The notes below the pieces were generated by a model. It was not told the origin of the DNA and ran no database searches. It saw only the letters and a list, made by a program, of their open reading frames with translations. DNA of 20,170 bases, from IMG/VR virus record IMGVR_UViG_3300010354_000898, positions 1-20,170 of that record; one strand, 5' to 3'. Position 1 is the stretch's first letter. Every line of letters starts with the position of its first letter. Position numbers and translations under genes: made by a program. This document shows, piece by piece, positions 1-19,244 of this stretch. The DNA is from a virus.

Positions 1-3000
1 AAACACCAACTAATCCATTATTATTTAAACTAAATGCTAGTGGAGCTTGTCTGGAGTTGAAGTCATAAATTTTACCCCAACTATATCTAGCACATGTAAA
101 TCCACTAGTAGAACCAATACCAGCAATAGATTGAACATTACTGAAAACTGTAACAATTCCAGAAGAACTGCTTTGTATATAATCTGCTTTGTAAACATTA
201 TCAATGTATGATGATCCAATTGACAGCACTGCAAAGCCTTCAGAAGAATTTAATGTTGTGACACCATTACCAACAATACTATTTGTGATTACAAAGTAAT
301 CCCCAGTACCAATACCACTTCTTTCAACGTTGTTGAAATTAGCATCATTTAAAACTTCATCGCTATCAAACTCAAATATAACCATTGGTGTTGTTGTTGA
401 AATACCTACAGCACTAGTAGCAATACCAACAATAGTTCCATAATCTCCAATAACTTTGATGTTATCAAATTGCTCATAAGTTGTTATTGCTGGTGAAGTT
501 AATACAATAGCAGGTACATTTGGATCGTAACCAAAACCAGGATCAGTAACTGTAACACTAGTAACTGTTCCTCCAACAGATATATTTGCAGTAACTGAAG
601 CTTTTACAACTTGTGATTCTGTAATTGCATATTTTGATGATTGACCAACTCCAATAATATTGAACAATTCAGTTCCAAGTTTACGAACATCCATATTTGA
701 ATTAGTAGTTCTAATCCAATCTTCACCATTACGAGATACTAAAGTTAATTGTGATGAACCAGTAATCAAATATACATTATTTTTATATGTAATATCATAT
801 AGAGTATATGATGCAAATTCTGGTTCAGATACATTGTTCCAAACTGCGCCACCATCAATTGATTTTAATATAGTTCCATTATTACCAACAGCGTAATGAT
901 CTCCATTTAAGTATCTAACCGAAAGTAAATCATTCGCAGTTCCTGAAGTATGTGTAGTCCAAACATAACCATCTGAAGATCTAGAGATTGCTCCTCCGAC
1001 ACCAACAGCCACAAAATTGTCTACACCAAATGTAATCGAATTTAATTCATTAGAATTTGCTTTTCGGACAACCCATGATGTAGTAATTCCTGTAGCAGCC
1101 TCTGAAACTAATGCAGTACCACCAGCACCAACGGCAATAAATTTGTTTAATCCATAATCTACGCCATTTATATTTCCACTAAAGGATGCTGGAGGATAAT
1201 CAAATGGTATGATACCACCAACATATACTCTTGATAAGAAAATATTATTGGGTGTCCATGATAATCCATCTAATGATGTAAAGATTGATGATGCAGAGCC
1301 TACTACTACCCAATTATTACTACCATGAGAAATTGAATTTAATGTAGCTCCACCAGTAAGAGACGATTGAGTATTCCAATTTTTAAAGTTATCACTTGTA
1401 GAAATTCCTCCAATTTCTGAACATGCAACATATAGGTTATTTCCATAGTCAAAATCTCTAAATGAATCTACACTTGCTAAAATATTACCATTTTCCCACT
1501 CTTTACCATATTGTGGAATTAAATCTACAGTTGTTGAAATGGTAATTTCTGGAGCACTACTATAACCAAAGCCACCGTCAACTACATTAAAATCTGTAAC
1601 TGTTCCTGCAGCAGATACAACAGCTGTGATTTTAGCTGTTTTTGTATCCTTCTCATTAAAGACTATGATAGAATTATTATTTTCTAATAGATCATCTAAT
1701 TGACTAAAATTAGGATAAGCACCTTCTACATAAATTTCAGTATCAGAGGTTTTAATTTCTTTAATTAATCTTGTAGATGGAATAAACTTACCTTCTAAAA
1801 TCGATCTTGCCTTTGAAATATAAACATTATCAACAATCAAATCTGATTTTTGTTTATCTAATGATACGGTTCTATAGAATGTAGGATCGGTTGAAATTCC
1901 AACATCAATATAATTTGTAGTTTTAACTTCCGATATTGTGTTTATGTTAGTTATAACTCTAGGTAATTGATTTACATAAGGAGTTTGTTGTAATAATCTT
2001 AACGAATCACCGACTTTTACTTCTGGAGAAACATCAACATCAATGACATCTAAATATGATCCTTTAAAGAAGAATATCAAGCACTCACTTCCAGCAATTG
2101 GAGCCTCAGTAAATACAAGTTTATCTCCACCAACCAAATTATAGTTTCTATTTGGATGTTGTAAAATGCCATTCAAAATTATAATTAAATTATTTGAAAC
2201 ATTAATACCAGATCCAGGTGCAGCATTGATATTATATCTTTCTTTGATTAAATCAGTTTTTGTTAATCCAAATGCTTTTGTTCTTCCATTAAATTGGCTT
2301 GAGATATCATCTAAAAGTACAAGTCCACCAAAGTGCCAACCACTAAATTCATCATTAATAGTATCAATAATTGAAAGTGTAAATGCACTAGTTGCAATGC
2401 CTACTTGAGTTGGAATTCCGCTAATTGTTAATTGATCATTAATCTCATATCCAATACCTCTATTGGCGAATTCAAATTGAGTTATGCTTCCACCACTACC
2501 AACTATAATATTGACTTTAGCACCGTTACCTGTACCACCTACTAATGCTATATTTGAATATGCAGTAGGAATTCCTACATTGATTATTGGTGGCATTGTT
2601 GATGCATAACCAGTGCCACCAGAAATAATATTGAAACCAGTAATAATGCCAACTGATGAACCAGTGCCAACCAATGCTATAATGGAAGCTCCACTACCAA
2701 CTTGAGAATCAATTTTAACCTCAACGTTACTTCTATATCCAAATCCAGAACTTGTTAATGTTAGAGACTCAATTGTTCCTCCACCAGAAACGACTGGAAT
2801 TGCAAATGCTGGAACCAGGGGTTGATAACCACTACCAAAACCTATATTTACTCTATTGATGATTCCACCCTTTGGCAAATCTAATCTAGAAGAACCTGTA
2901 AATGCTAAAGATCCACCAATAGCGATTGGTGATTGTTCACTCATATTATAGTCAACTATTGGTTTTTGTAGAATGTTATTGATATTAATAGCGCCATAAT

Positions 3001-6000
3001 TTGGACCTAAAACATTACCACCTAAATCAGTAATAATACCAGTAACTGGTTGACCATACGATGTTAATTCAAAATTTGTTTTTGAGCCGTTAAACTGATC
3101 ACTTATATCATCAAATATGTAATTAGTATCATAATTTAATCTATAGAAAATTCTTCCTGCAAATGTAGATCTAGTTGAAATGCCAGCAGGTCCTACGTCA
3201 CCATATGGAGCTGTTTTGAAGTAAATATATCCATTATTAATATTATAATCACCTTTTAATACTGTTACCCCAGCTCCAACTGTATGAGCCACAGCAACAG
3301 TGCCCATATATCCTCTATTTACTGATAATACATTAGTAGAACCGAAACCAACAGCGTTGATTTCTAATAGTTCGTCATCAATTCTTAAAATATTTGTTGG
3401 AGTTATTGAAGTAATTCCAGTTAAAGTTACTATTGTTGAACCAATTGAAATTGAAGTTGATAATGAAGTGTTTACATTAACTTTATATAATGGACTTTGA
3501 ATGATATTATCAATTGTAATAATTGCTCTACTATTTGCATAATCATATGGTGTATATAATGTATGAGTAGTACCAGCTCCAACACCCAAACCACCACCAA
3601 GATCTCTAAATCTGAAATAGTTTCCAGTAGCTGTTGCGTCGGTTTTTAAGCCTACTAATTTAAATCTATTGATATCAACTTTATATACAAAAACTCTTTC
3701 AGGCATGAAATCAGTTGTTGCACCACCAATTACTCTATTAGTAGATTCAACGGCTATTCTAGTTCCTCCTGCGCCAGGATTATAAATTAATTCTTCACCA
3801 GTGCTAAAACCATGATTTGCAATGCTTACAACGCTACTACCAACAGAACATGCAATTTGAGCTGTAAAACTCTTACTTAATAGTCTACTATTGTTATTGT
3901 TCAGTTTAAATGATGTTAATCCTACAATTGTTCCACCTTTGGAGACATCAGCAATTGTTACATTTGGAGCAGCTGTAGTACCTATTCCAATAATTGATGT
4001 AATAATACCAACGTAAGAACCAATTGCAGATAATACGTCAGAGCAACAATTTTCATTATATGCTGGACTGCAATTTTCATCTAACAATATACTATAATTA
4101 AATGATTGAGTTATTTCAAATGGTGTTGTTTGATATGACGTTGAAATTGCAACATTGTTAATGATGTAACGAGAAAGGTCAATAATATAACGGAATCCAG
4201 CAATAGTTTCTTGTGATTCTCCATCAACAAAACTAGTTCCTCCCACACCAGTCCAATAAGCTAAACCAGATGCCACAGACTTTTCATTGCCACCATATTT
4301 TAAATCATATGCAATAGAGTCTACAATGTAACCAACATCTCTTTGACATACTTCAGCATCAAAATCTAAATTTGTTGTAATTCCTGGGTATGAATTTGTT
4401 ATAAACCCAACTACTTCTTTTTGAATAAATTCTTTATTAAGAGCTAATAAATTAGACCCATCTGCAAATCTTCCGTTAACTTGCAATACACTAGTTCCAG
4501 TAAATTCATTACTAATATCATCAATTGTCAAAACTTTGTTTGTCTTACAAATACTATAGTCAAATAGTTTTTTGGTTAAAAACCCAACATCTTTAGATAT
4601 TCCTTTATCGGTAGTAATTTCAAAAACTTTATCAAAATATTGCTTTGTATTAAATGAGGATTCACTTAAAATATTAATCAAAGTATTTGAACTATCAATT
4701 GGAGATATTTTCAAGTTGGAACTTCTACCAATTCCAATTGTAGCTCTAGAATCAACTACAACGTCACCAAACAGCTGCATTCCTGCAGGATGTGCTAATT
4801 CTTGAATATCATTTTCCCAAACAGTTTTAGATGTTTGGCTATTAATTGCGTATGAGAAATTTTGATAGTAATTGCTGTCTTGAATTTTTTCCTGACTATC
4901 GTTGGTAAATCCTGTATTTGTAAGCCATCCATTCTCTTTAACAAATTCACCAGAAGTTCCAAAAAATGTATTTGTATATACAATATCATCAATTAACGCT
5001 TTGGAGTTAGTTTTAGATCCTACAACCGTATCTCCTATTGAAATATTAAAACTATTTCCAACAATTTTCAATACATTTTTTTCCTTATTCCAACCATCTT
5101 TATAAACCTTAAATTTATAACCATTAGAATATAAAACCTCATTTTCAATAAAATCAGTTTTTTCCAAGTTAGCAGTAAATTTAGCTAAATCATCAGCTTT
5201 GATTACTCGTCCAACACTATTTGTAGCATCATAATAACCACCAGTGCTTCCTAAACCAACAATTGAATAACTAACAGTCTCAGCACCTGGAGTATCATCA
5301 ACTGATGTAACCTCAAAATAACTATAGTTATAGTTTTCGGAGTTATATCCACCAGCACCAGATAAAGGTTCTGATAATTCAATACCTTCGACGAAAATTT
5401 TATCTCCTATACCGAATGGAAACTCTAAGAATTCGCCATTATCTGATGAAATTGTGAGCGTATTTGTTGTTCCATCGGAAATAGCATTACTAATACTAAG
5501 ACCGTTAGAATTATTTACTGGAATTATGGTTGGAGCAATTTCAGATAATCCTGTTTTATTAATATTAATCTCTACAGATTTAACACTATTACTCTCGGTT
5601 TTAGTATTAAAAACTATGTCTGGATGCTCTAAACAAATGACTTTTGGCTCAGTTAAATAATTTTTTCCGCCATTTAAAACTACAATATCTTTTAATTGAT
5701 AGTTATTTTTAATTTTTAATGTAAATGGTACGTCAGCCTTTGGTTTTAATGATGGATCGGTAGGCAAATTGTATCCAGATGTGATAATATTTAAGTTTTT
5801 AATTCTTCCAATATCAAATGAATTTAACTTTAAGTTAGCATTGGTTCCTTCAGCTGTAGTAATATTTTTTACTTCAGGTAAAGCCAAATATCCAGTTCCA
5901 GTAAATCCTATTGATATTTCATTAATTGATCCTTTTGCAGATAATGATCGTGTCGTATAACTAAAAGTGGTAACTCCAGAATTTGTATATTGGGAAAGTT

Positions 6001-9000
6001 CTGGAACAGACAATAAATCAAAATTAATTGTGGTTGATCCAACTGAAGTAACTCTAAAAGTTCCATTATATTTTGAAACACCAACTTTAATTCTTGAAAA
6101 TGCATCAACATCCTTATCTACATTATATGCATATGCATTTGATGTAATTGTAGATATTCCTACTGGATTTAATTTATAATAAAATACATCAGGAATATTT
6201 GTATTTAATAATACATTTACTTGAGCCCCTGGATTGCCAGGAACACCAATCCTAGTAACATTTTTTACATTGACCTTATTTGTAAAATTATTATCTTGAT
6301 AGAAATCTATAATTAAAGATTTTAAACTTACATCACTAACATCAAATGAAATTGTTTCACCTAAATTGAAGTTTAATGGTGGATTAATTAATGAAATAGT
6401 ATGTGTACCTATTCCTGCAGAAGTAATATCAATACCACTATAGTATAGATCATTTGCATCATACAGATATTCTGCGAATTTAATTGTATTTGCACCAGTA
6501 TTAATAATAAAATATTCTTCTCCGTCTATGAGAGGCGCAGCAGGGTTGCTGGAATTATATACAATTTTATCACCAGTTTTATATGAATGATTATTAATAG
6601 TTACCACATTGTCTTGAATTGATACTTGTGTAGAACCAAATCCAACAGGATTTATTAACAGACGAGCACTTACGTTATCAAATTTTACGGGAACTGATTT
6701 AGTTTGATTTGGTAGTACATTTAAATTAATTAAATCATTATATTTTAAATTATGATCATCAAAGGTAGTTACAACACCCTCATTCAGTAAAACTTGACCA
6801 GTGGGATTTGGATATGTTGTTTTAAATTTATGGGAAAATCCAGTTGAAAGATCACTAGATGCAAAATACAATCTACCCTGAGCAGAGGATATTCCAGCTA
6901 AAGTTGAAGAAATGCCAATAAAATCATTAGTATCAACAATAACGTAAACGTTATCGCCTGTTTGTAAATTAAATGTTGGAGTTAATGATATGCTTTGAGA
7001 ACAAGTTAAACCAATTCCATTTACTGCACTGTATTTTAATTTTTGTCCAGTTGTAAATTGATGGTTTGGAATATAAATTGATCCAGGTGGAATATTGACT
7101 TTTTTAATTTGGCGTACTATACTTGTCGTTGCTATTCCAACATTTGTTGATGAAGTACTATCATAATTAACAGTGATTGTTGCAAAATCTTTTTGAGCAA
7201 CGAAAGAATCGCTGATGCTTAAATTATCTATAAAATCAGTTTCAATTCGATCTCCAATTTCAAATGGATGGCTGTAAAATTCTATGGTTGTGTATGATCC
7301 TTGACCAGTTTGTACTCCAATAGGTCTTGCAGTATAACCTGTACCTACTTGTATTGAGGTTGTTGTGCTACCGTATCCAACATCTTTTTGTGGATTAAAG
7401 TAAATTGATCTATTGTAATTAGTTGTGCTTGCAGTTTTTATACCAGTAGCAGATGGTATTGTAAAATACCTACTGAAAACAGTTACTTCACTACCCTCTG
7501 TGTGACTTGTTCCTACTGTAGAATCATGACATCTTACAACTTTATAAGCAGTATTTAATCTATTTGCCCCCAGAACTAAGAAGCGTTCTGAACCAATACC
7601 TATAATATCATCTGGAACAATTTTTCTACTGAAAATAGATTCTGTTAATGAAATTTCAGTATTTATTCCAGTTAATGTAGTATTTCCAATAGCTACTCTT
7701 AGTTTAGAATAAAATGTAGTAACACCAATTTGATAACTACCTTCAATAAATTTGTAAGATGTTGTATTGATACCAACAATTTTTACAATTTTATTATTTG
7801 GTAAATTATGTGGTTGTGTAAAAATTCCAACTATATCTTGCTCATCTTCAATAAATTCTATATCAGGATATGTAGTCTGTAAATTTACAACAGAAGATAT
7901 TGCTACACCTACTAGAGAAGATACTTTAGCATCTAGTCCTCTTCCATTAGTTCCACTGTTATCAAAATTAATACGATCATTTACTTTGTAAGAAGAACCA
8001 CGTTTTATTAGATCAATATTATCAACTCCAGATTTATGGACTGATCTAACTAAAACTTTACTATCTTTACTGTAATTTAAATCAATTCCACCATAAGTCG
8101 CATATTCTCTATTTAATTTGTATGGAGTTGTGTTTCTAATCAGTTGATTTTTTTCAACAGAATTATTTGTTTGTGTTTCTGTATAGTTAATGTTGAATAC
8201 ATCAATCTCATAAGTATAATCATTCAACACATAAGGATAATTTTGATTTGTTGCAAAATACGCATAAGTTCCATTAGGAAACTCTGGTGTTATACAATAT
8301 CTACCATTATTTTCGTCAAGATCACCATTGGCTGTATATACATAATCCTCTACAAAAAATCCTGCAGGGTATGAAGGTCTTTCTGGTAATGGAATTAATT
8401 CATAACCACTTTCAAGTTCTTTTACATTGGTTATTGATGAAGTTGTTGAAGATCCATAGGGGCCATAAATAGGATTTCCATCATAAGCCCAACCAACAAT
8501 TGGGGAGTGTTTTATATTTGGAACTACATTTAAGTTTGCATCTAAGTTATCATCAAGAATGTATCTTAGTTTTTTTGGAACAATTGGTGTAGTTAATTGG
8601 ATAGAATTGCTATTTTTGTCAAATGATTCAATGTAAAATGAATCTGAAACATTTGATGTGTCATTAATTATAGATTCATAACGTTTAAACAAATTAATAT
8701 GCCACGTTTGAATGTTGGAAGTAAATGACGCATTTTTTCCACGACTAATAACAAATAATTCAGTAGTATTTTTCTTATAATTTTTACCAGATTCTAAAAC
8801 TTCTACATTTGTAATTTTACCATTAGTAACAGTTGCTCGTAGTGATGCAAATGAACCTTCACCTACAATTTTAATATCTGGAATTGATGTATAACCACTT
8901 CCACCATTCAAAATATAAACTTCAGATATACCACCATTAATAATAATTGGTTTTAGTAAAGCATTTTTTCCACTATTTAATACTATATTAGGTTTTCTAT

Positions 9001-12000
9001 TGTAATTAATAATATCTGGTGTACCATAACTTGTACCACCATCTTTTAAAAATACATTAGTAACAGAACCAGTAAAAACTGGAACTGCTATTGCTTGAGA
9101 AGATTCATAAGTATCGCCAATTTCGGCAACATTGCCAGAAACATCTGAAGAATTTGAAGTTCCTAAAATTTCTAAACTGATTGGTGGTGTGTAGAAAGTA
9201 TGTTCTCCAGTTCCAAACCCAGTAAATTTGACATATTTGTTTTGATCATAGTTATTTGATGATAATGTTGTTCCAATTCCTGCTGATGCTAATCTAAATT
9301 TATCGTTGTCTAATTTGATAACGTAATAATTTTGAGTTGTTGTTAACCCAATTGAAGAACCACTCGATTTATATAAAATTAATTCTTTGTCTGAAAAATT
9401 GTGATTTTTTGCATAAATGAAATTTTCTTGAGTATTAATGCCAACTAAAGATATTGGTATGTTCTGAGATTCTTTAGGTGGATATGAAGATGAAGTAACT
9501 ACTACTTTTTTGTTAACATATCCAGTTCCAGGATTAATAACTTCGATTCTATCAACAACGTTTCTTACTTTAGTCGATAAAAATGTTTGATTACCGTTAC
9601 CTTTTTGAGTTAAATTAATAGTATTGATTCCAGCAAGGGCATCAGATTTACTATTTGTTAACTTTATAGCTTGATCATCAACTTTTATCACATAATATTT
9701 CGAAAGATCGATAAGATAATTTTTTGTATCTGATTCTCCTGCAGCTGGAGTACCAATAGTTCCAATACCAATAGCAAGATTACTATATGATCTATAAATT
9801 ACTTCTTCACCAGTTTTAAAATTGTGAAATGTACTAAATCCAATTGTATCAGTTGCAGTATTAATTCCAGGAGAAGCACCGTAAAAATCAATACTACTGT
9901 AAATAGATTTCATTATAGGTTGAGCAGTTGCTCCTGATCCATTTCCTCCAGTAATTTTAATTGATGGGCTAATTAAATAATCATATCCAGATGATAATAA
10001 ATCAACTCTAGATAATCCTCCTTCAATGTGTACAAATGCCGATGCACCATAACCAACACTATCTTCCACTACAACATTAGGTGGATCAATTATATCATAG
10101 TCTTCTCCACCATTTATGAGATCAATTGAAGTTAATTTTCCATAATATACTCTATCTTGACTTTTTGAAAAAATAACTTCTGTACCATTTAATAAAATGC
10201 CAACTGGTGTTGGGAGTGGTGATTTTGATAAATTGTAATTTCCCTCTTTTAATTTTGGATTAATCGATACTCGTTTGACAAGTTTTTGATCTTGAATAAA
10301 TTTATTTGAAAGTTCATCTAATATTAGGATATTATTCGAAGAAGGTGTACTGGAACTAAGTGTTAAGAAATCTCCATTAAAAATTTTAGCCCTATTGTAA
10401 GCTAATTTGAGTTGAGTTGAACTTTCCTTTTTGACAAAATATGCTCCAGTGTTTATGCCTACATTAGAGCCAGTATATCTAAAATATACTTTATCCCCTG
10501 TTTCAAAATTATGATTAGCAACAGCACCAGAGCTATTTCTGGTAGTTATAATTTGAGTTTCACCATTTACTGTGAAATATACTTCTCCAGGATTTGATGA
10601 AACACTATATGATGGCAAACTTGATGTAGTAACATAAACATATGTTCCAAATTTGTCCACATAAGTATTCTGTATATCAGCAATATATTTTTCTTGCCCT
10701 GCTGAAGATATTAAAATATTTCTATAAAGTTTATAATCTAAATTTGATTCCAAAATACCAGAAGTATATTCCAAAGCAAATGAAGTTGGACTATAAATTT
10801 GTACTATTTTTCCAGTAACAGGAGGATTAAAACTATTATCATAATCATCTACATCATACAGTGTAATAATATCATCAAGGTTAAATCCATGTTCAATTTT
10901 AGTGTTTATTGTTGCTGGTGATGATGTTTTTGTGATGCCTAGTGGCTTTTCAACTAATTTAATTTCATATGTGTGATTGTGCAACCAACCATTAATTCTA
11001 TTGTTATATGATTCTATATCAGTTGAAGTATCTTCTCCCAAATCTTTAAGACCTATTTCATCACCAACTTTCAAATACTTAGATGTATCAAGTAGTTCTG
11101 AAAAATCAGAAATTACCGAAGTGATTCTAAAATATACTGGTTTATTAATATCGCCATCTTCATAAGAATATGCAAAATCATTTAAATAAATTGAAGTAAA
11201 TTTATCAATTGAGTATGGGATTGTGCAATTAAAAAATTGGTTATCATTCTTTCCATCATAGGAAATGTATGATCCACTAATATAAAGTTGACCAGAATTT
11301 GGAAATCCAATGGTAGAGTCTACAAATATTGTTGTATCTTGTGTTGTTGCTCCTGTAGTAGTCTTTGTAACAGGACAAGCTTTGAATTTACCTATCTTTG
11401 TATCATCACTTAATTGAATTTCATAATATACCTCTTCATCAAATGATATTAAAGTTGAAAGGTAAATGTTACCATAAGCAGCTGGATTATTTTGATATAA
11501 TGGCTGACCATTAGTTTTACTAATATCACCAGAAATAACAGAAACAATTAGATTATTTGTTTTACTCCATTGTGCTGCTGAAGGTTTTATTACATAGTCT
11601 GAAGGATTTACAAGTTTTACATTAGGATCGCCATATAAAACCTTAAACAGAATATCAAAAGATTCTAAAGTTCCCTTTGTTTCATAGAAATCTTTAGCAT
11701 GTTTTAAAAATATTTTTTTATCTACTTTATCGCTTATATTCTTATTTTCGAATCCAGGTAAATACTGAGTTTTAATTTTTTTCCATATTTGAGCATAAAT
11801 TAAATTACTAAGATTTTTTACCTCTTTTCCAGCAGTGTGACTATCTGCTTCTGAAGATGAAAAAACTAATTCACCAGGATTTGTTGGTGTTTGATATGAT
11901 TCAATTGCACTAAATCCACGAACACACTCATAAAAATGGGTTTCATCTTTACGTTTATATGTAATTATTTCATCATCAATTTTTAAAAGACCATATGATG

Positions 12001-12274
12001 AGGGCCATGACGATGTACTAGAAACTTCTATAATGTCATCGTAGTAAGTAATATCACTAGTTAAGGTAGTTGAATGCTCTTCAAATTTAGTGGCATCAAA
12101 ATTTTCTACATTAATAATTCGATCAATATTTTCTGATAATTCAATAACTTGAGAATTAGATATGTAGTATTGATCTAAAAATTGATAAAATAAAGAGTCC
12201 TCTTCGGCATAAAAAGGTAACTGAGATTTCAGTACCTGTGAAATTTGAATTCTTTGGAGATCTTTATCTAACAT
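1..12274 (-). CDS. gp7: Giant baseplate wedge initiator-like structural protein (gp7-like), 3' end outside window
   Basis: This is one uninterrupted minus-strand frame of 4,091 codons (lowest complete codon at 2-4). I read every triplet in this frame and found no stop, so the C-terminus lies beyond the left edge. T4 gp7 has about 1,030 residues, so this is at least four times longer. The start is the ATG 5 nt after the gp6 stop, with only a weak AGG ahead of it, which suggests translational coupling. The N-terminal 220 residues are helical and contain FYETKGTLESF (196-206), a pattern I associate with cyanophage gp7. The rest is a mosaic: about ten G-x-[IV]...G-x-x-Y modules, at least six H-[NGQ]-[FY]-x-T-G-[DE] modules, a cysteine domain (about 2643-2765) and a six-repeat BNR-like propeller (about 3600-3862). 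The assignment to gp7 rests on position after gp6 and the N-terminus. The modular part could equally be called a fused tail-fibre-like region. Confidence 0.8.
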   Translation of the reverse strand, partial: MLDKDLQRIQISQVLKSQLPFYAEEDSLFYQFLDQYYISNSQVIELSENIDRIINVENFDATKFEEHSTTLTSDITYYDDIIEVSSTSSWPSSYGLLKIDDEIITYKRKDETHFYECVRGFSAIESYQTPTNPGELVFSSSEADSHTAGKEVKNLSNLIYAQIWKKIKTQYLPGFENKNISDKVDKKIFLKHAKDFYETKGTLESFDILFKVLYGDPNVKLVNPSDYVIKPSAAQWSKTNNLIVSVISGDISKTNGQPLYQNNPAAYGNIYLSTLISFDEEVYYEIQLSDDTKIGKFKACPVTKTTTGATTQDTTIFVDSTIGFPNSGQLYISGSYISYDGKNDNQFFNCTIPYSIDKFTSIYLNDFAYSYEDGDINKPVYFRITSVISDFSELLDTSKYLKVGDEIGLKDLGEDTSTDIESYNNRINGWLHNHTYEIKLVEKPLGITKTSSPATINTKIEHGFNLDDIITLYDVDDYDNSFNPPVTGKIVQIYSPTSFALEYTSGILESNLDYKLYRNILISSAGQEKYIADIQNTYVDKFGTYVYVTTSSLPSYSVSSNPGEVYFTVNGETQIITTRNSSGAVANHNFETGDKVYFRYTGSNVGINTGAYFVKKESSTQLKLAYNRAKIFNGDFLTLSSSTPSSNNILILDELSNKFIQDQKLVKRVSINPKLKEGNYNLSKSPLPTPVGILLNGTEVIFSKSQDRVYYGKLTSIDLINGGEDYDIIDPPNVVVEDSVGYGASAFVHIEGGLSRVDLLSSGYDYLISPSIKITGGNGSGATAQPIMKSIYSSIDFYGASPGINTATDTIGFSTFHNFKTGEEVIYRSYSNLAIGIGTIGTPAAGESDTKNYLIDLSKYYVIKVDDQAIKLTNSKSDALAGINTINLTQKGNGNQTFLSTKVRNVVDRIEVINPGTGYVNKKVVVTSSSYPPKESQNIPISLVGINTQENFIYAKNHNFSDKELILYKSSGSSIGLTTTQNYYVIKLDNDKFRLASAGIGTTLSSNNYDQNKYVKFTGFGTGEHTFYTPPISLEILGTSNSSDVSGNVAEIGDTYESSQAIAVPVFTGSVTNVFLKDGGTSYGTPDIINYNRKPNIVLNSGKNALLKPIIINGGISEVYILNGGSGYTSIPDIKIVGEGSFASLRATVTNGKITNVEVLESGKNYKKNTTELFVISRGKNASFTSNIQTWHINLFKRYESIINDTSNVSDSFYIESFDKNSNSIQLTTPIVPKKLRYILDDNLDANLNVVPNIKHSPIVGWAYDGNPIYGPYGSSTTSSITNVKELESGYELIPLPERPSYPAGFFVEDYVYTANGDLDENNGRYCITPEFPNGTYAYFATNQNYPYVLNDYTYEIDVFNINYTETQTNNSVEKNQLIRNTTPYKLNREYATYGGIDLNYSKDSKVLVRSVHKSGVDNIDLIKRGSSYKVNDRINFDNSGTNGRGLDAKVSSLVGVAISSVVNLQTTYPDIEFIEDEQDIVGIFTQPHNLPNNKIVKIVGINTTSYKFIEGSYQIGVTTFYSKLRVAIGNTTLTGINTEISLTESIFSRKIVPDDIIGIGSERFLVLGANRLNTAYKVVRCHDSTVGTSHTEGSEVTVFSRYFTIPSATGIKTASTTNYNRSIYFNPQKDVGYGSTTTSIQVGTGYTARPIGVQTGQGSYTTIEFYSHPFEIGDRIETDFIDNLSISDSFVAQKDFATITVNYDSTSSTNVGIATTSIVRQIKKVNIPPGSIYIPNHQFTTGQKLKYSAVNGIGLTCSQSISLTPTFNLQTGDNVYVIVDTNDFIGISSTLAGISSAQGRLYFASSDLSTGFSHKFKTTYPNPTGQVLLNEGVVTTFDDHNLKYNDLINLNVLPNQTKSVPVKFDNVSARLLINPVGFGSTQVSIQDNVVTINNHSYKTGDKIVYNSSNPAAPLIDGEEYFIINTGANTIKFAEYLYDANDLYYSGIDITSAGIGTHTISLINPPLNFNLGETISFDVSDVSLKSLIIDFYQDNNFTNKVNVKNVTRIGVPGNPGAQVNVLLNTNIPDVFYYKLNPVGISTITSNAYAYNVDKDVDAFSRIKVGVSKYNGTFRVTSVGSTTINFDLLSVPELSQYTNSGVTTFSYTTRSLSAKGSINEISIGFTGTGYLALPEVKNITTAEGTNANLKLNSFDIGRIKNLNIITSGYNLPTDPSLKPKADVPFTLKIKNNYQLKDIVVLNGGKNYLTEPKVICLEHPDIVFNTKTESNSVKSVEININKTGLSEIAPTIIPVNNSNGLSISNAISDGTTNTLTISSDNGEFLEFPFGIGDKIFVEGIELSEPLSGAGGYNSENYNYSYFEVTSVDDTPGAETVSYSIVGLGSTGGYYDATNSVGRVIKADDLAKFTANLEKTDFIENEVLYSNGYKFKVYKDGWNKEKNVLKIVGNSFNISIGDTVVGSKTNSKALIDDIVYTNTFFGTSGEFVKENGWLTNTGFTNDSQEKIQDSNYYQNFSYAINSQTSKTVWENDIQELAHPAGMQLFGDVVVDSRATIGIGRSSNLKISPIDSSNTLINILSESSFNTKQYFDKVFEITTDKGISKDVGFLTKKLFDYSICKTNKVLTIDDISNEFTGTSVLQVNGRFADGSNLLALNKEFIQKEVVGFITNSYPGITTNLDFDAEVCQRDVGYIVDSIAYDLKYGGNEKSVASGLAYWTGVGGTSFVDGESQETIAGFRYIIDLSRYIINNVAISTSYQTTPFEITQSFNYSILLDENCSPAYNENCCSDVLSAIGSYVGIITSIIGIGTTAAPNVTIADVSKGGTIVGLTSFKLNNNNSRLLSKSFTAQIACSVGSSVVSIANHGFSTGEELIYNPGAGGTRIAVESTNRVIGGATTDFMPERVFVYKVDINRFKLVGLKTDATATGNYFRFRDLGGGLGVGAGTTHTLYTPYDYANSRAIITIDNIIQSPLYKVNVNTSLSTSISIGSTIVTLTGITSITPTNILRIDDELLEINAVGFGSTNVLSVNRGYMGTVAVAHTVGAGVTVLKGDYNINNGYIYFKTAPYGDVGPAGISTRSTFAGRIFYRLNYDTNYIFDDISDQFNGSKTNFELTSYGQPVTGIITDLGGNVLGPNYGAININNILQKPIVDYNMSEQSPIAIGGSLAFTGSSRLDLPKGGIINRVNIGFGSGYQPLVPAFAIPVVSGGGTIESLTLTSSGFGYRSNVEVKIDSQVGSGASIIALVGTGSSVGIITGFNIISGGTGYASTMPPIINVGIPTAYSNIALVGGTGNGAKVNIIVGSGGSITQFEFANRGIGYEINDQLTISGIPTQVGIATSAFTLSIIDTINDEFSGWHFGGLVLLDDISSQFNGRTKAFGLTKTDLIKERYNINAAPGSGINVSNNLIIILNGILQHPNRNYNLVGGDKLVFTEAPIAGSECLIFFFKGSYLDVIDVDVSPEVKVGDSLRLLQQTPYVNQLPRVITNINTISEVKTTNYIDVGISTDPTFYRTVSLDKQKSDLIVDNVYISKARSILEGKFIPSTRLIKEIKTSDTEIYVEGAYPNFSQLDDLLENNNSIIVFNEKDTKTAKITAVVSAAGTVTDFNVVDGGFGYSSAPEITISTTVDLIPQYGKEWENGNILASVDSFRDFDYGNNLYVACSEIGGISTSDNFKNWNTQSSLTGGATLNSISHGSNNWVVVGSASSIFTSLDGLSWTPNNIFLSRVYVGGIIPFDYPPASFSGNINGVDYGLNKFIAVGAGGTALVSEAATGITTSWVVRKANSNELNSITFGVDNFVAVGVGGAISRSSDGYVWTTHTSGTANDLLSVRYLNGDHYAVGNNGTILKSIDGGAVWNNVSEPEFASYTLYDITYKNNVYLITGSSQLTLVSRNGEDWIRTTNSNMDVRKLGTELFNIIGVGQSSKYAITESQVVKASVTANISVGGTVTSVTVTDPGFGYDPNVPAIVLTSPAITTYEQFDNIKVIGDYGTIVGIATSAVGISTTTPMVIFEFDSDEVLNDANFNNVERSGIGTGDYFVITNSIVGNGVTTLNSSEGFAVLSIGSSYIDNVYKADYIQSSSSGIVTVFSNVQSIAGIGSTSGFTCARYSWGKIYDFNSRQAPLAFSLNNNGLVGV
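690..1480 (-). other. BNR/Ycf48-like six-repeat beta-propeller domain inside the giant gp7-like protein
   Basis: Residues about 3600-3862 hold six related segments of the form [FYW]-x-[AV]-x-G...[ST]-x-[DN]-G-x-x-W. Visible copies include FVAVGVGGAISRSSDGYVW, YAVGNNGTILKSIDGGAVW, WVVVGSASSIFTSLDGLSW, YLITGSSQLTLVSRNGEDW and two more divergent ones (YVACSEIGGIS and FIAVGAGGTALVS). The S-x-D-G...W core resembles the Asp-box of BNR repeats and the repeats of the photosystem II assembly factor Ycf48. Six repeats would fit a closed propeller. A role in carbohydrate or surface binding is inference. Confidence 0.75.
3980..4348 (-). other. Cysteine-containing C-x-RDVGYIVD domain in the giant gp7-like protein
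   Basis: Residues about 2643-2765 begin with CQRDVGYIVD, continue with AYDLKYGGN, and end with a cysteine cluster (ENCSPAYNENCCSDV) followed by GSYVGIITSIIG. I recognise this combination as a recurring domain of large marine-cyanophage virion proteins of unknown function. Because the domain recurs in different proteins, it may be a mobile structural module. It contains four cysteines besides the first one, which is high for this otherwise cysteine-poor protein. Confidence 0.6.
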
Positions 12275-12279: not shown

Positions 12280-14169
12280 TTACCTAGTATACTTACCGTT
12301 AGAGTAGCTTGAAGTTGAAGTGAACTGTGTGCCTGATTGATTTATATCGGAAGTTAAAGTATCATTTATTAGCGTGAATTTGCTATTAGAGACACTTAGA
12401 CGTAAATATAAATCTTTTAGACCAATGACATCATTTGATTCTGGAATAGCTTCCACCTCTATTATATTATCGGGGAAACTTGTTGAAAGAAACGTTACTG
12501 TATCTATATTAATTTCACCAGTAGAATAATCAATTTTTCCAGCATCACTTTTGGCAATAACTGGCTTTCCTTGGGAATCTAAAGTGAAAAATATAATTTT
12601 ACCACTAGTTTTACTTCCAGTATCGGGAATGTCTGCAAGATAAAGATCTCCTTCAATTCCAGAAACTGTAAATTTGGAGGATTTGATGGAATAACCTTCA
12701 GACTTTACATGGAACTTGTTGCCAAAACACAATTCATATTGAGCTGGTTGATTAATTAAAGCATTCAAATCTCTTCTCATCTTTATTTTAGTAATATTGG
12801 AAGTTATTGCATCATCGATGCCATCAATTAAACCTAAAATCTTACTATACTTAATTCTTCCACCAAATCCATTTGCTTCTGATGCAGTTGAATAATAATT
12901 TAAACAACTTATTATTTCAGTTTTTAAGTCTTCATCAGTCTTAACTTTAGATTGTTGATAGTAAATTGTTGAATCCAATTCCACATAAAGATATTTCATA
13001 TCAAGAATTGTTGGGACAATACCAGCAATTGAATAAGTTTTCAATTTACTTAAAATATCATCCTTTGTAAATTGTGATAGTGTATTACCACTCTTAGGTT
13101 TAATAACAATAAACACTTTACCATATTGAGGAGGATTTAGTTCCTCACCACCGTAAGCTACAACTGCTTCTGCGGTTGGATATATGTCTTGTACGATTGT
13201 TTCATAATCTTGTGAAGAAACCGCTCTATTTCTAGTGGCATATCTTCTTGGAGCAAAATATTTAATAGCAGATATTGGTTCAATATTAGATCCATCTCTA
13301 GAAGGACTTACTACACTTAAAGATACTGATAAATTAGTTATTTCTGTATTGGTGTCATCGACAATAATGCCATTATAAGTTGCTGATCTAACCCCATTAC
13401 CTACAGGTCCGTTTGTAATAATATAAGAAGCTTCAATAACATTACCATCATTCAACTCTTTACTTATAATTCCATCACCAAAAAGTAATTCATATCGTTC
13501 ATTAGATACTTCTTGAATTAAGTACTTATTTGCAGTTGTTGATAATCCAACAATTGAACTAACTTGAGTATAGATATCAAATCCAGATGATTGAGATGTT
13601 GGATATACTTTTACTGCTAATGTTGAAGTATCAACATTTTCGTTATCAATTACATAAGTTGAATATGGATTGGTCTTATCTACAGTAAAACTAGACGATG
13701 CATAAGTTCCTTCATATAATGTTATATCATTAAACTTAGCAATACCATTAGTTACTGATACGGTAATATCCTGTGGAATTGAAAATGTATATGCAATATT
13801 GTTAGTAGATGACGTAGCTACTAAACCTGATTTTAAAGTTAAAGTTGGTGGACTAATATTGTTACCAAGAACTACATTCAAATTGACACGTAATCTAGAA
13901 GCTCTTGCTGACTTTGGAACGTATCCAATATTTCTAGCTAGAGCAACTACATTTTCTCTCACTAAGGCAGTATCTAGAAATACTTCATTAACTACTGCGT
14001 TAGTATTATATGACGTAATATACGTATTATATGCTAGTATGTCAATTAAGGTTGATAGATTTGACCCTTCAAAGTCATAATCAGTAAAATTACTGTTTGC
14101 ACGTAAATAATCCTTAATAGATTGTTTTATCTGATCAAAATCTAAATTTGTAACTTGAAATTGTGCCAT
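12280..14169 (-). CDS. gp6: Baseplate wedge subunit gp6
   Basis: This 629-residue protein is close to T4 gp6 (about 660). gp6 belongs to the baseplate J-like family and links neighbouring wedges into the baseplate inner ring. The N-terminus shows the family signature YDFEGSNLSTLIDILAYNTY (about residues 31-50), then VFLDTALVRENVV and NIGYVPKSARA. A second signature lies near 305-360: APRRYATRNRAVSSQDYE, then VVAYGGEELNPPQYGKVFI. The start is the ATG 2 nt after the gp25 stop (TAA-TA-ATG), so the two are probably translationally coupled, and the gp7-like start follows 5 nt after its own stop. The gene order 25-6-7 is the usual one in T4-like cyanophages. I saw no internal break. Confidence 0.95.
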   Translation of the reverse strand: MAQFQVTNLDFDQIKQSIKDYLRANSNFTDYDFEGSNLSTLIDILAYNTYITSYNTNAVVNEVFLDTALVRENVVALARNIGYVPKSARASRLRVNLNVVLGNNISPPTLTLKSGLVATSSTNNIAYTFSIPQDITVSVTNGIAKFNDITLYEGTYASSSFTVDKTNPYSTYVIDNENVDTSTLAVKVYPTSQSSGFDIYTQVSSIVGLSTTANKYLIQEVSNERYELLFGDGIISKELNDGNVIEASYIITNGPVGNGVRSATYNGIIVDDTNTEITNLSVSLSVVSPSRDGSNIEPISAIKYFAPRRYATRNRAVSSQDYETIVQDIYPTAEAVVAYGGEELNPPQYGKVFIVIKPKSGNTLSQFTKDDILSKLKTYSIAGIVPTILDMKYLYVELDSTIYYQQSKVKTDEDLKTEIISCLNYYSTASEANGFGGRIKYSKILGLIDGIDDAITSNITKIKMRRDLNALINQPAQYELCFGNKFHVKSEGYSIKSSKFTVSGIEGDLYLADIPDTGSKTSGKIIFFTLDSQGKPVIAKSDAGKIDYSTGEINIDTVTFLSTSFPDNIIEVEAIPESNDVIGLKDLYLRLSVSNSKFTLINDTLTSDINQSGTQFTSTSSYSNGKYTR

Positions 14170-14171: not shown

Positions 14172-14588
14172 TTATGCTCTCGTTGGTTTAAGGATCATTG
14201 AAACGGTTTGTGAAACAGATTCTATACCAATAATTAAATATGATATGCTAACTTCCAACTCAAGATCATCATCAGACACATCAATTTCAATATTTTCTAC
14301 AAAAATTCTAGGTTCATAATTTCTTAAAACTTGATTTATTTCATTTTCAATTTTAAAAATAATTTCGCTATTAGCTAATTCAAAAAGACTATCCTCAACT
14401 GTAGTTCCCACCTCTGGTTGGAAAAATTTAGATCCAAGTTTTGTTCTAACTAAATTAATTACAGACGTTTTAATGGCAGCCTCATTGGAAATTGTAATTA
14501 AATCATTAGTAATTGGGTGTTTCTTAAAAGAAAAACTAAAATCTTTAAACCCTCTAGAAATTTTGGGTTTATTGGATAGAGTTGCCAT
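14172..14588 (-). CDS. gp25: Baseplate wedge subunit gp25
   Basis: This 138-residue protein is close to T4 gp25 (132). The family (GPW/gp25) is related to type VI secretion TssE and binds gp6 in the baseplate wedge. The family's EPR motif is at residues 92-94 in NYEPRIFVENIEI. Upstream, TKLGSKFFQPEVGT matches the usual R-x-x-G-S-x-x-x-x-P-x-x-G pattern. It is the first gene of the 25-6-7 operon: a perfect late octamer TATAAATA (14609-14616) ends 20 nt before the start codon. There is no Shine-Dalgarno sequence. Instead a small hairpin (14589-14605) directly precedes the ATG, so the leader is probably only about 15 nt long. Confidence 0.93.
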   Translation of the reverse strand: MATLSNKPKISRGFKDFSFSFKKHPITNDLITISNEAAIKTSVINLVRTKLGSKFFQPEVGTTVEDSLFELANSEIIFKIENEINQVLRNYEPRIFVENIEIDVSDDDLELEVSISYLIIGIESVSQTVSMILKPTRA

Positions 14589-14987: not shown

Positions 14988-15131
14988 TTAGTTACCTTGT
15001 CCTCTATAACGCTTTTTTGCACCATTACGAGAGGTTGCAGCATACTTAGTATGCTTTCCCATACCTTGACGAGTCTTTTTGGGCTTTGATTCAATAATTA
15101 CTTTGTTTGTCAGTGAAGGTCGCTTAGCCAT
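14988..15131 (-). CDS. Small, strongly basic phage protein (47 aa)
   Basis: The sequence begins MAKRPSLTNKVIIESKPKKT and ends with KYAATSRNGAKKRYRGQGN. It has about 13 Lys/Arg against one Glu, with no hydrophobic segment. That composition suggests nucleic-acid or acidic-protein binding (inference). The R-Q-G...T-K-Y-x-A-T-S-R-N...R-G-Q-G pattern resembles a small conserved hypothetical protein I recall from T4-like cyanophages; I know no function for it. The start is supported by GGAGA 6 nt upstream. The start overlaps the end of the 68-aa gene by 8 nt (ATGGCTAA), so translation is probably coupled. A strong terminator follows directly. Confidence 0.8.
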   Translation of the reverse strand: MAKRPSLTNKVIIESKPKKTRQGMGKHTKYAATSRNGAKKRYRGQGN

Positions 15132-15330
15132 TTTGTTCTCCTATAATTTTAACTTCAATGTCTTTTGGATCAGGTTCCCCGTTGATGTAAAATTCTTCAG
15201 CGAGGTACATAAGATTATCACCCATTTCTTCGTATGTCAAGCCTTCGATGTGAAGTTCACCTTTAATATAGATGGCGAACTTACTATCGAAGGCTGTCAA
15301 TACTTCATTAGATAACTCTGGTCTTTTCAT
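15124..15330 (-). CDS. Small acidic protein of unknown function (68 aa), overlapping the glycosyltransferase gene
   Basis: A longer in-frame ORF reaches back to 15459, but residues before MKRPELSNEVLTAF lie wholly inside the glycosyltransferase gene and look like out-of-frame translation. I therefore place the start at the internal ATG at 15330. This gives a 23-nt overlap with the glycosyltransferase end and an 8-nt overlap with the 47-aa gene. The protein is acidic, with an alternating pattern (FAIYIKGELHIEGL) that suggests a short beta-hairpin, followed by an amphipathic helix (YEEMGDNLMYLAEEFY) and a final strand (DIEVKIIGEQNG). There is no clear Shine-Dalgarno sequence, so it probably relies on ribosomes terminating on the upstream gene. 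I do not recognise a family. Confidence 0.7.
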   Translation of the reverse strand: MKRPELSNEVLTAFDSKFAIYIKGELHIEGLTYEEMGDNLMYLAEEFYINGEPDPKDIEVKIIGEQNG

Positions 15331-16054
15331 GTCCAACACGAATGAGAGGATTACACCAAATTTCAAATCCAGCCTTCTTAGCATCAAGACAGAACGAAAC
15401 GTCTTCGCCACACATATCTTGAACTTCACCAGATTCAAAGATTTGCATCTGAGGAGCAAACCAAGGATAAGTCAGGGATTCAAATACTCCCTTCTTAATC
15501 AGAACCCAACCAAAGCCAGTATAATCGACTGTGAAGGGCTTCTTACGCTTGCCCATCGATTCAACGGTCTCATGGTTCATAACACCACGATTCTTGCGGA
15601 ATTCTTCTTCAGAGAGCCAGTGAGCAACGGAGGTTGTGTGACCATCCTCAGTAGCATACCAACCAGCAGCAATATCCTTGTCCATTGTGACGAGACGAAG
15701 AAGACCCTCAGTGTTGAAAACGATATCATTATCAATCCAGAGTTGATAATCGTACTGAAGTTTGCCATCCCAGGGAACTTGATTAGGGCCACGAAGAACA
15801 TTGGCACCAAGGCACTTGCATCGTGCAAAGTTAACCATGGAGGAGTAATCTTGTGAAATTTGAATACTTACGCCAATCTGCACAAGATCGAAGCAGAGTT
15901 GAACGAAATTTTTGAGAAAAGTATATGAACAACCACGACCAGGAAGCATGAACACGAGAGTCTTGCCGTTGAGCATTGCTTTTGCTTGTTCAACATCAAA
16001 ATCATCTTGTGGCTTTTCAGGTTCAGTTGCCTTTACAGAAAATCCTTTTGCCAT
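15308..16054 (-). CDS. Glycosyltransferase, GT-A fold (GT2-like), 248 aa
   Basis: This enzyme would transfer a sugar from a nucleotide-sugar donor to a protein, lipid or DNA acceptor; the acceptor cannot be read from the sequence. The GT-A metal-binding D-x-D motif is seen as WIDNDIVF (DND 108-110) after the nucleotide-binding half, which contains NFARCKCLGANV. A C-terminal acidic pair in MCGEDVSFC (GED 216-218) is the likely catalytic-base region, and a late His (242, VGHEKT) fits metal coordination. There is no signal peptide or membrane segment, so it is cytoplasmic. Similar small glycosyltransferases are common in T4-like cyanophages. It is first in an operon with the 68-aa and 47-aa genes. 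A late-like octamer (16091-16098) lies 36 nt upstream. Confidence 0.85.
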   Translation of the reverse strand: MAKGFSVKATEPEKPQDDFDVEQAKAMLNGKTLVFMLPGRGCSYTFLKNFVQLCFDLVQIGVSIQISQDYSSMVNFARCKCLGANVLRGPNQVPWDGKLQYDYQLWIDNDIVFNTEGLLRLVTMDKDIAAGWYATEDGHTTSVAHWLSEEEFRKNRGVMNHETVESMGKRKKPFTVDYTGFGWVLIKKGVFESLTYPWFAPQMQIFESGEVQDMCGEDVSFCLDAKKAGFEIWCNPLIRVGHEKTRVI

Positions 16055-16090
16055 AATATCTCAAAGGGTACATGTGAATTCTAACATAGG

Positions 16091-16098
16091 TATTTAGT
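16091..16098 (-). promoter_or_regulatory. Late-promoter-like octamer (ACTAAATA) for the glycosyltransferase operon
   Basis: The minus strand reads ACTAAATA, 6 of 8 to the T4 late consensus, 36 nt before the glycosyltransferase ATG. The identical octamer occurs on the plus strand 22 bp away, ahead of the divergent 576-aa gene. The repetition in mirror orientation makes a functional role more likely than either match alone. Confidence 0.45.
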
Positions 16099-16120
16099 TG
16101 GTGTCAAGAGTGGAATTTTT

Positions 16121-16128
16121 ACTAAATA
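16121..16128 (+). promoter_or_regulatory. Late-promoter-like octamer (ACTAAATA) for the plus-strand virion-protein pair
   Basis: ACTAAATA ends 19 nt before the start codon of the 576-aa gene, nearly the same spacing as TATAAATA before gp25 (20 nt). It is identical to the octamer on the opposite strand at 16091-16098. As at gp25, no Shine-Dalgarno sequence is seen in the short leader. Confidence 0.5.
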
Positions 16129-16147
16129 TTTAAAAAGCATTGTAGAA

Positions 16148-17878
16148 ATGAAGGATCTTAGAGAGGCGTATAACGAAGTTTATTCGCTTAATGAAGTCAG
16201 TTTTACGAATACTGGTGGTGTTAATGCTAGCATGTTCACAGCTGGATTGAATATGAAAGCACCGCTGGTTAAAACTGAACCAAAAAAACCAGAATCTACC
16301 CCAGCGCCAGTTGCTAAAAAAGAGCCAACCGCGATGGATCAATGGAGAGCTGCAAATCCAAAACTTGCTGCCGCCTCTGATGAAAGATCGAGAATTCGTG
16401 GAACTGCACAAACTGATAATCCACTAATTGATGCTGAGATGAGAGCAAGAATGCCTCTAACACCCTCAGTACAGGCACCAGATTTTCAAACAACAATGAA
16501 GTCTGGCAAGTATGGTGATCAAGGACATCAAAGATTAACTCAAAATCCTTATGCTGCAGTTGGAGCAACTCCAAAAACTTCTACTACCACTCCAACTACA
16601 ACCAGTACCACTAAAACCTCAGAGAAAGAACCAGTAACTCCAAAACGTGTAAATATTGGAAAATGGCTTTCAAATACTCCCGTTAGAACACCTGCAACTA
16701 ATCAAATGAACTCCTACGACTACGGCAATATCGATCAAGATCAACTTACATCATTACTTGATGCTTATAATAAAGTTTATCAAGAGCAAGTAAAGGTTCC
16801 TGCTGATGCATCAGACGCTGAAGCACTCAAAGGTCTTATTCCTAAAGGAGATAAGGTTCATGAGGTAAAGAGAAAGAAACTTGATGCACACTTTGAGCCA
16901 GAGGGTGAGCAAATCGAAGAAGCTGGTGATGATCCATGCTGGAAGGGTTACACACAGGTCGGCATGAAAAAGAAGGGTGGCAGAGAAGTCCCCAACTGTG
17001 TGCCTTCTAAAGGTGTGCCAAAAGCTAAGGGTTATAAGAAGGAAGAGGCTGAGTTAGAAGAGAATGCAGCAAACCTAATTCGTCTAGGACTTGCTGCTGG
17101 TACTGCACTTGCAGGAATGAAAGTTGCTGGAGATGCGAAAAAGGTTGCTGACAAGATTAATAAGCAAAATAAAGAAAAAGAAGCATTCTATAAAAAAACT
17201 TTAGGAAACTCTTATGAGCCAGAAGGTGAACTCGTAGAGGCTTATGATGTTATACTTAATTACTTAATGACTGAGGGTTTTGCAGCTAGCGTAGAGAACG
17301 CTGAGAAGATTATGACGGTTATGAGTGATGAATGGATGCAAAACATCATCTCAGAAAATCAAGCAATGCTAAAGTTTAATTATCGTCCTGGTAGAAGTTT
17401 TAGCATAGGTGGTGAAGGCTCATCTAATAACGTTGCCGCTGGTTTAGACGTTACTAGATATGCTGCTGGTCACGTACTAGACGACAAGACAGTTGAACAG
17501 GGTATTTCTCAGGCACTTGCAAATCCTAATCAAGCCGCCCCTGTCACCAAACCTGTAGGTGCAAAAACAGGTGTGAGTGGTTATGCAAACCTTACTGGAG
17601 AAATTCCTAGCGCAAAGCCATCTGCAAGTACAAATCCTACCAATACTACGAATAATCCTAATACTAATCCAAAAGCTGGTAAAGATAAGAATGTTAAGGG
17701 TAATGACCCTAAGGGTATTGATCCTAAGGGTACTGACCTTAATAAGCGTGATGATTCTAAAGATCCTACTGCATTAGATATAGCTAACAAAGCAGCACTT
17801 CAAAGAAGAAAGGATCTGGTAGCACAAACTCCATCTATGCCTGGTGGTGGCATTATAAATCGTATACAATCACGTTGA
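16148..17878 (+). CDS. Probable virion structural/internal protein with prohead-protease-like sites (576 aa)
   Basis: The protein is a low-complexity chain with short motifs familiar from cyanophage virion proteins. These include A-Y-N-[EK]-V-Y (residues 7-12, and again near 210), ANPKLAA with ERSRIRGT (about 69-86), and PCWKGY...KKKGGREVPNCVP (263-286, C264 and C284). A duplicated EPEGE[QL] motif precedes IEEA (256-259) and LVEA (362-365). Six sites fit the T4 gp21 prohead-protease pattern [L/I]-x-E: after E6, E16, E258, E305, E364 and E403. A Thr-rich linker (about 140-160) and DPKG repeats (about 517-531) separate the parts. Residues 407-485 are homologous to the N-terminal region of the next gene. 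It may be a processed head-internal or scaffold-like protein. That is inference; no fold is recognised for the whole. Confidence 0.8.
   Translation: MKDLREAYNEVYSLNEVSFTNTGGVNASMFTAGLNMKAPLVKTEPKKPESTPAPVAKKEPTAMDQWRAANPKLAAASDERSRIRGTAQTDNPLIDAEMRARMPLTPSVQAPDFQTTMKSGKYGDQGHQRLTQNPYAAVGATPKTSTTTPTTTSTTKTSEKEPVTPKRVNIGKWLSNTPVRTPATNQMNSYDYGNIDQDQLTSLLDAYNKVYQEQVKVPADASDAEALKGLIPKGDKVHEVKRKKLDAHFEPEGEQIEEAGDDPCWKGYTQVGMKKKGGREVPNCVPSKGVPKAKGYKKEEAELEENAANLIRLGLAAGTALAGMKVAGDAKKVADKINKQNKEKEAFYKKTLGNSYEPEGELVEAYDVILNYLMTEGFAASVENAEKIMTVMSDEWMQNIISENQAMLKFNYRPGRSFSIGGEGSSNNVAAGLDVTRYAAGHVLDDKTVEQGISQALANPNQAAPVTKPVGAKTGVSGYANLTGEIPSAKPSASTNPTNTTNNPNTNPKAGKDKNVKGNDPKGIDPKGTDLNKRDDSKDPTALDIANKAALQRRKDLVAQTPSMPGGGIINRIQSR
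17696..17740 (+). repeat. Three imperfect 15-bp tandem repeats coding for KG-x-DP units
   Basis: AAGGGTAATGACCCT, AAGGGTATTGATCCT and AAGGGTACTGACCTT follow one another inside the 576-aa gene and encode KGNDP-KGIDP-KGTDL. They form a hydrophilic linker next to the C-terminus. Copy number may vary among relatives through replication slippage. Confidence 0.85.
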
Positions 17879-17885
17879 AGTAAGT

Positions 17886-18665: not shown

Positions 18666-18704
18666 CAGAATCCTTATAAGTTCCCCGAGTGTTATGGCGA
18701 TATA

Positions 18705-18740
18705 AGAGACTTCCTGATAACGAATTTCAAGGAAGTCTCT
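18705..18740 (+). terminator. Hairpin terminator after the plus-strand pair
   Basis: AGAGACTTCCT (18705-18715) pairs perfectly with AGGAAGTCTCT (18730-18740) around a 14-nt loop, 40 nt past the stop of the 259-aa gene. On the plus strand it is followed by CATTTTGCTTTCTTCTT, an imperfect U-rich tract. The right arm touches the stop codon of the convergent 44-aa gene, so the hairpin also ends that gene, but without a U-run on the minus strand. Confidence 0.65.
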
Positions 18741-18874: not shown

Positions 18875-18878
18875 AACT

Positions 18879-19040: not shown

Positions 19041-19072
19041 GGTCTTATAATTTACCCCCTCGGAAATTTTTC
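19025..19072. repeat. 14-bp perfect direct repeat flanking the 53-aa start
   Basis: CTCGGAAATTTTTC occurs at 19025-19038 and again at 19059-19072. The first copy covers most of the first codons of the 53-aa gene; the second lies in its leader, and the first C of each copy is 34 bp apart. Confidence 0.7.
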
Positions 19073-19098
19073 TGGCAAAAATTTTTTGATCTTAGAGA

Positions 19099-19106: not shown

Positions 19107-19141
19107 GGTCGATTTCAAGGTCTTATAGCTTAGGGAAGTTA

Positions 19142-19186: not shown

Positions 19187-19201
19187 GCTTATCACTGCCT
19201 C

Positions 19202-19232: not shown

Positions 19233-19244
19233 AAGTATAAAATA

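Follow-up and report, generated by a model that had tools for sequence, protein, structure and literature searches.

The reading frame that occupies positions 2..12274 of the window, a viral contig of 20,170 nucleotides, is most probably the gp7-type baseplate wedge gene of a freshwater Kyanoviridae phage near-identical to Synechococcus phage DSL-LC03, and its giant product would combine an anchor on gp6 with outward arms. An earlier note on this DNA described a wedge protein grown into a much larger one; this holds, and the routes can be added: the giant owes its length both to insertion between two gp7 signatures and to a C-terminal module that ends in a conserved domain of its own. The resulting map traces the growth of one of the longest structural proteins of phages, and it offers testable borders both for dividing the protein in structural work and for locating the host-binding parts of abundant cyanophages.

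The minus-strand ORF 12274..2 begins with an ATG five bases past the gp6 stop and continues for 4,091 codons to the window end, where it is still open; comparison with DSL-LC03 identifies these as residues 1-4091 of 4107. A single stop-free frame of at least 4,091 codons that leaves the window, as first reported, is thus borne out; of the coordinates then given (1-12274) the end is correct and the start is not, the frame occupying 2-12274. At the base composition of the frame, a stop-free run of this length would arise by chance with a probability of about 1e-154. The window is a complete linear IMG/VR record of 20,170 bases, and the end of the gene must therefore be taken from another source. 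In DSL-LC03 (OR003938), which matches all 20,170 window bases at 99.0% identity, the gene measures 12,324 nt and encodes a protein of 4,107 aa (446 kDa, pI 4.9); the stop that was to be sought by extension follows 16 codons beyond the window, and gp8 comes next. Over 12,273 nt, the two copies differ by 9 substitutions and no indel. The gene has already been sequenced and annotated as a "baseplate wedge initiator" in DSL-LC03, a phage of Dishui Lake with a metagenome-assembled, PCR-checked genome (PMC10611076). The G+C content is about 30% in the baseplate genes and climbs to 40-52% in window 15000-20170, with the same arrangement in DSL-LC03; a contig chimera, suspected from this jump beyond 15 kb, is ruled out by the collinearity of DSL-LC03 over the whole window.

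The giant lies between gp6 and gp8: in the window it follows gp25 (baseplate wedge/sheath initiator, 138 aa; 14172..14588, minus strand) and, immediately upstream, gp6 (baseplate wedge subunit, 629 aa; 12280..14169, minus strand), and gp8 is the next gene in DSL-LC03. Giant gp7 genes have mostly been labeled by position; the gp7 signatures are now located within one. The first spans residues 1-290 and has three parts. N-terminal helices (residues 9-45; 12140..12250, minus strand) are collinear with the helical segment of T4 gp7 (649-689), a match that is weak alone: in the alignment to the T4 core-bundle helix (643-689), residues 10-45 of the giant, predicted to be helical, pair weakly with T4 649-689. 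A trifurcation-type segment, DFYxTKGTxxSFxxLFKxLYG (residues 154-215; 11630..11815, minus strand), matches T4 gp7 705-759 and the gp7 proteins of phiM19 and Cr30, and a beta domain (residues 237-289; 11408..11566, minus strand) matches domain V of T4 gp7 (765-851). The second signature, YYQxxSYxIxS...W...V...HPxG (residues 2411-2509; 4748..5044, minus strand), corresponds to the C-terminus of shorter gp7 proteins and, weakly, to T4 862-889. The locus and the two signatures, in T4 order, bear out the initial description of the protein as gp7-like.

Built only from cyanophage sequences, the profile of residues 1-290 matched every one of 24 T4-type gp7 loci near T4 721-759 (E about 1e-8 to 1e-10), as well as gp7 of phiM19 (1e-26) and Cr30 (2e-23). 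In hhalign profile-profile comparison, residues 189-289 of the giant align to T4 727-814 with 95% probability; in the other direction, T4 gp7 as the query matches phrog_2885 (1e-4) and phrog_26741 (2e-5). The second signature finds the C-terminal ends of phiM19 gp7 (928-997, 4e-17) and Cr30 gp7 (655-728, 1e-16); its match to T4 862-889 (YYVMKIKSNLPSSRWKSDVIRFVHPVGF) is weak, at 1e-4 per protein and an hhalign E of 5e-5. AlphaFold2 gave a mediocre model for residues 1-422 (pLDDT 69, pTM 0.38). When this core model was searched against 350,542 chains using Foldseek, the two best matches were gp7 of Klebsiella phage KP1-Lilla1 and of T4; VIA-align places model residues 237-396 on gp7 765-851 with Z scores of 9.5, 9.4 and 8.2, with which unrelated beta domains tied. 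None of the Pfam models Gp7_helical, Gp7_5th and Gp7_6th (helical, V and VI) reaches its gathering score in the giant, and PF23786 (Baseplate_wedge) matches just under its cut-off (22.8 vs 27); the Pfam Gp7 models score T4 gp7 strongly, and we take them to be narrow. A PDB sequence search with the whole protein returned nothing at E up to 1. The segments that carry the homology to T4 are short.

The distance between the two signatures varies: about 100 residues in T4, about 490 in Cr30, about 740 in phiM19, some 1,500 in S-H34 and about 2,200 in the giant. Between residues 290 and 2411, the giant consists of copied beta modules and a degenerate YHYH domain, about 2,100 residues in all. Profile self-comparison of the giant detected four module families over the whole protein, and these, with the propeller model, bear out the proposal of repeated modules and a propeller in the extra length. 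R1 has four copies, the first of which (residues 57-117; 11924..12106, minus strand) sits between the gp7 helix and the trifurcation segment; the others are at 291-350, 1522-1606 and 2935-3012. R2 has six copies (542-665, 788-905, 920-1034, 1666-1797, 1846-1975 and 2793-2915), exemplified by residues 788-905 (9560..9913, minus strand). R3, a "GGxGYxxxP" module with about eight copies, is represented by residues 1059-1170 (8765..9100, minus strand) and recurs at 696-790, 2099-2175, 2188-2262, 3148-3279, 3533-3590 and 3886-3936. R4 has two copies, 3035-3137 (2864..3172, minus strand) and 3307-3400. A tandem repeat search on the DNA found no array in the giant gene; its repeats are ancient enough that profiles alone reveal them.

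The size of the giant is ordinary for Kyanoviridae. Its 28 relatives range from 2,514 to 6,378 aa, and it matches the 4,179-position profile of PHROG 2885 ("baseplate wedge subunit") at 2,523 bits. The product of the gp7 locus measures 767 aa in Caulobacter phage Cr30, 1,007 in Sinorhizobium phage phiM19 and 1,032 in T4, and among Kyanoviridae the same locus ranges from 1,942 to 6,619 aa: S-H34 1,942, S-CAM9 3,884, Bellamy 4,067, S-SM2 4,156, S-B43 4,337, P-HM1 4,446, S-SCSM2R 5,172, P-SSM2 5,195, S-RIM2 6,378 and S-SZBM1 6,619 (S-RIM2, S-SZBM1, S-B43 and S-SSM7 have extra genes between the giant and gp8). These sizes, the length of PHROG 2885 and a homologue detected in virions show that the giant is not exceptional; comparison with other cyanomyovirus gp7 shows that such proteins are common, some of them longer. 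No paper on giant gp7 as such was found in the openly accessible literature, in which the sizes appear in tables and annotations.

Residues 3592-3886 (617..1501, minus strand) form a seven-bladed beta-propeller between two R3 copies. The fold is recognized by Foldseek (YCF48, E 2e-10) and by VIA-align (Z 26.4 over 260 residues). In other giants the flanking R3 copies are joined by 6-8 residues, and the propeller replaces that linker. It is found in the clade to which the window belongs (support 0.98), in the gene itself in 8 unsplit members and in the second ORF in both split members, and in 0 of 19 giants outside that clade, a distribution that points to one insertion. Among cultured kyanoviruses with an unsplit giant, S-CAM9 and S-8S56 have the propeller, and S-SM2 and Bellamy do not. 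A search of viral contigs from the single propeller sequence returned one locus. YCF48 and BNR seven-bladed propellers have the same fold, but the identity to YCF48 is about 16%, many propellers match equally well, and Pfam PSII_BNR gives 3e-5, under its cut-off. The propeller as a stolen YCF48 was considered and rejected as unsupported beyond the fold; a photosystem role is unsupported.

The YHYH domain (PF14240; residues 1255-1351; 8222..8512, minus strand) scores 80 bits against a cut-off of 25 and recurs in every aligned giant. Tail-linked YHYH domains have been predicted to be metal-dependent hydrolases (PMC7824862). Together with the score and the conservation of the domain, this prediction would make the giant a baseplate enzyme, a zinc hydrolase that opens the cell wall, instead of a binding arm. 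Such a role is unlikely: in the window, as in most giants, the YHYH motif is changed to YAYF, so that the described His triad is lost, although the first His and the Asp of HSPIVGWAYDG are kept. Judged from its altered motif, this copy more likely has a binding or structural role.

The C-module comprises residues 2511-4107, about 1,600 residues that follow the second signature, and is a separate ORF in DSL-LC02 and S-SSM7. Its boundary with the N-module, at about residues 2510-2515 (4730..4747, minus strand), coincides with an in-frame stop followed by an ATG in DSL-LC02 (L006 22543-22551): the first ORF of that phage, 2,514 aa, ends right at the second signature with TAA, then come one codon and an ATG, with AAGG upstream, and a 1,432-aa ORF continues in frame. 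This border may be a natural two-chain version or a stop-readthrough site. In S-SSM7 (L009 4562-23656), the giant gp7 is in two parts of 3,007 and 3,001 aa, with the gene of a 340-aa virion protein between them. A C-terminal "YSWGK" domain (residues 3938-4091+; 2..463, minus strand) ends most giants and both split second ORFs; residues 3930-4091 are modeled at very low confidence (pLDDT about 25), and hence no fold is claimed for it. In the N-module tree, the two split phages branch from within unsplit relatives, so fission looks derived. Homologues with two separate genes, which the earlier note had named as evidence against a single gene, therefore exist in two relatives, and they look like later fissions. 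In a further relative (L026 1631-11559), an in-frame stop interrupts the gene after 527 codons and the frame changes again later on, and flanking protein is 75-79% identical to that of the intact L027; these breaks may reflect sequencing error, decay or a real split.

A border of this kind would also suit post-translational cleavage of a precursor near residue 2,510 into gp7 and a C-terminal baseplate or fibre protein, since it directly follows the second signature, at the point at which the shorter gp7 proteins terminate and DSL-LC02 stops and restarts. Most relatives keep the fusion, however, and no protease or cleavage site was identified, which makes cleavage quite unlikely.

The assignment of the giant as gp7 has to be set against a published comparison in which T4 gp7 is absent from pelagi- and cyanomyophages and VrlC stands in its place (PMC7029224). 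Accordingly, gp7 would have been lost in cyanophages, VrlC (DUF4815) would have taken over, and the giant would be an unrelated surface adhesin; the bulk of the giant does lack a T4 counterpart, and the Pfam gp7 models give no match. Yet the giant carries both gp7 signatures in T4 order, and phiM19, with the gene order gp6-gp7-gp8-VrlC, encodes a 1,007-aa gp7 with both signatures in addition to VrlC, so VrlC is no substitute for gp7; furthermore, VrlC is widespread in non-T4 phages, e.g., in those of Staphylococcus and Salmonella. Replacement by VrlC is thus very unlikely, and the presence of gp7 signatures inside a giant speaks against the idea that VrlC serves cyanophages in place of a missing gp7. 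The VrlC/DUF4815 gene lies after gp8 (L002 24135-31859), and 1,539 phage records hold relatives of it, those of Staphylococcus, Salmonella and Listeria myoviruses among them.

A frameshift or assembly artefact that conceals two or more genes, of which the split genes of DSL-LC02 and S-SSM7 might be taken as a sign, is scarcely credible, as many genomes carry independent whole frames, the differences from DSL-LC03 are substitutions only, dN/dS is about 0.2 on either side of the N-/C-module boundary, and the split cases are nested in an otherwise unsplit clade, with second ORFs that bear the same propeller and end domain. Independent contigs with whole frames of similar length include L011 (4,117 aa, about 70% identity) and L049 (4,116 aa). 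Relative to L011, dS is about 1.05 and dN 0.22; the dN/dS of about 0.2 is alike in the core, middle, C-module and propeller, which indicates purifying selection on the whole frame. The DSL-LC03 match and this even dN/dS argue for one translated gene, neither an accident nor a hidden frameshift.

Homologues of this gp7-type wedge protein are virion components. S-SZBM1_208 (6,619 aa, 724 kDa), homologous to the giant by sequence, was represented by 71 peptides in CsCl-purified virions (PMC9146016), and S-CREM2 ORF122, which lies at the gp7 position and measures 1,937 aa by its coordinates, by 91 unique virion peptides (PMC10665884). In the AlgoCIS structure paper, gp7-like parts are lateral, fibre-binding and fast-evolving, a "hotspot of re-engineering" (PMC8894135).

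In the mechanism proposed here by analogy, the two gp7 parts of the giant would come together as one fold and sit against gp6 in all six wedges, on the T4 pattern. The T4 virion contains six gp7 copies, packed with gp6 in the six wedges; a T4-type gp7 would there join two gp6 in the heterotrimeric wedge core. With the gp7 parts packed on gp6, the inserted and C-terminal modules would project from the wedge periphery as long arms or a skirt. The propeller and the YHYH domain would sit at exposed loops and may bind host-surface glycans or fibres; receptor contact would move the arms, and the gp6-gp7 core would relay this movement and trigger sheath contraction. More tentatively, gp7 may be an open scaffold, which keeps its two ancient halves and takes up copied modules and foreign domains in the loop between them and at the C-terminal end; it would replace the separate peripheral baseplate proteins of T4 and present exchangeable receptor-binding heads such as the propeller.

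At the six copies of T4, the giant would contribute about 25,000 residues per virion, a few percent of those in the major capsid protein. The latter amounts to roughly 400,000 residues per virion at the T4 copy number. On these figures, the large share of late translation attributed to the giant at the outset is unsupported. The capsid estimate uses 452 aa per subunit, as in S-SZBM1 (PMC9146016).

Other genes of the window lie beyond the baseplate operon. Next to it, window 15308-16054 (minus strand) is a glycosyltransferase-like gene (phrog_1574), a putative glycosyltransferase in DSL-LC03; P-SSM2, S-SM2 and S-SSM7 have a gene of about the same size at this position, in each case from a single cluster (T4-GC 102). 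The proteins encoded by window 16148-17878 and 17886-18665 (both plus strand) have starts that resemble T4 internal head proteins (MKTYTEFISECYRIQE; MKDLREAYNEVYSLNE; T4 IPI is MKTFKEFTSTTTPVSTITE), possible (L/I)xE prohead protease sites and a 95-residue segment common to both (E 3e-14). Among 50,697 phage records, relatives of the 17886-18665 protein were found only in DSL-LC03. From these features, it is possible that the two are new injected head proteins.

Among known systems, the closest to the giant is the baseplate wedge initiator of DSL-LC03 (WJZ47963.1): it is the same gene, with the same neighbours and 99.8-99.9% protein identity, and differs by its nine nucleotide substitutions and by having the last 16 codons and the stop. 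The Kyanoviridae giants of PHROG 2885 (P-SSM2, S-RIM2, S-SZBM1, S-SM2 and S-CAM9) share the locus, both gp7 signatures, the repeat modules and the YHYH domain; their lengths and C-modules vary, and the propeller is confined to one clade. The short gp7 proteins of Cr30 (767 aa), phiM19 (1,007 aa) and Synechococcus phage S-H34 (1,942 aa) have the N-terminal core and, at the C-terminus, the second signature, as in the giant; unlike the giant, they have smaller insertions and no C-module. T4 gp7 (1,032 aa; PDB 5IV5 and 5HX2) also lies between gp6 and gp8 and has the trifurcation segment, domain V and the weakly matching HPxG segment in the same order, after a helix that aligns weakly with that of the giant. 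By contrast, T4 gp7 has about 640 residues ahead of the core that the giant lacks, whereas an insertion of about 2,100 residues and a C-terminal addition of 1,600 are peculiar to the giant in this comparison.
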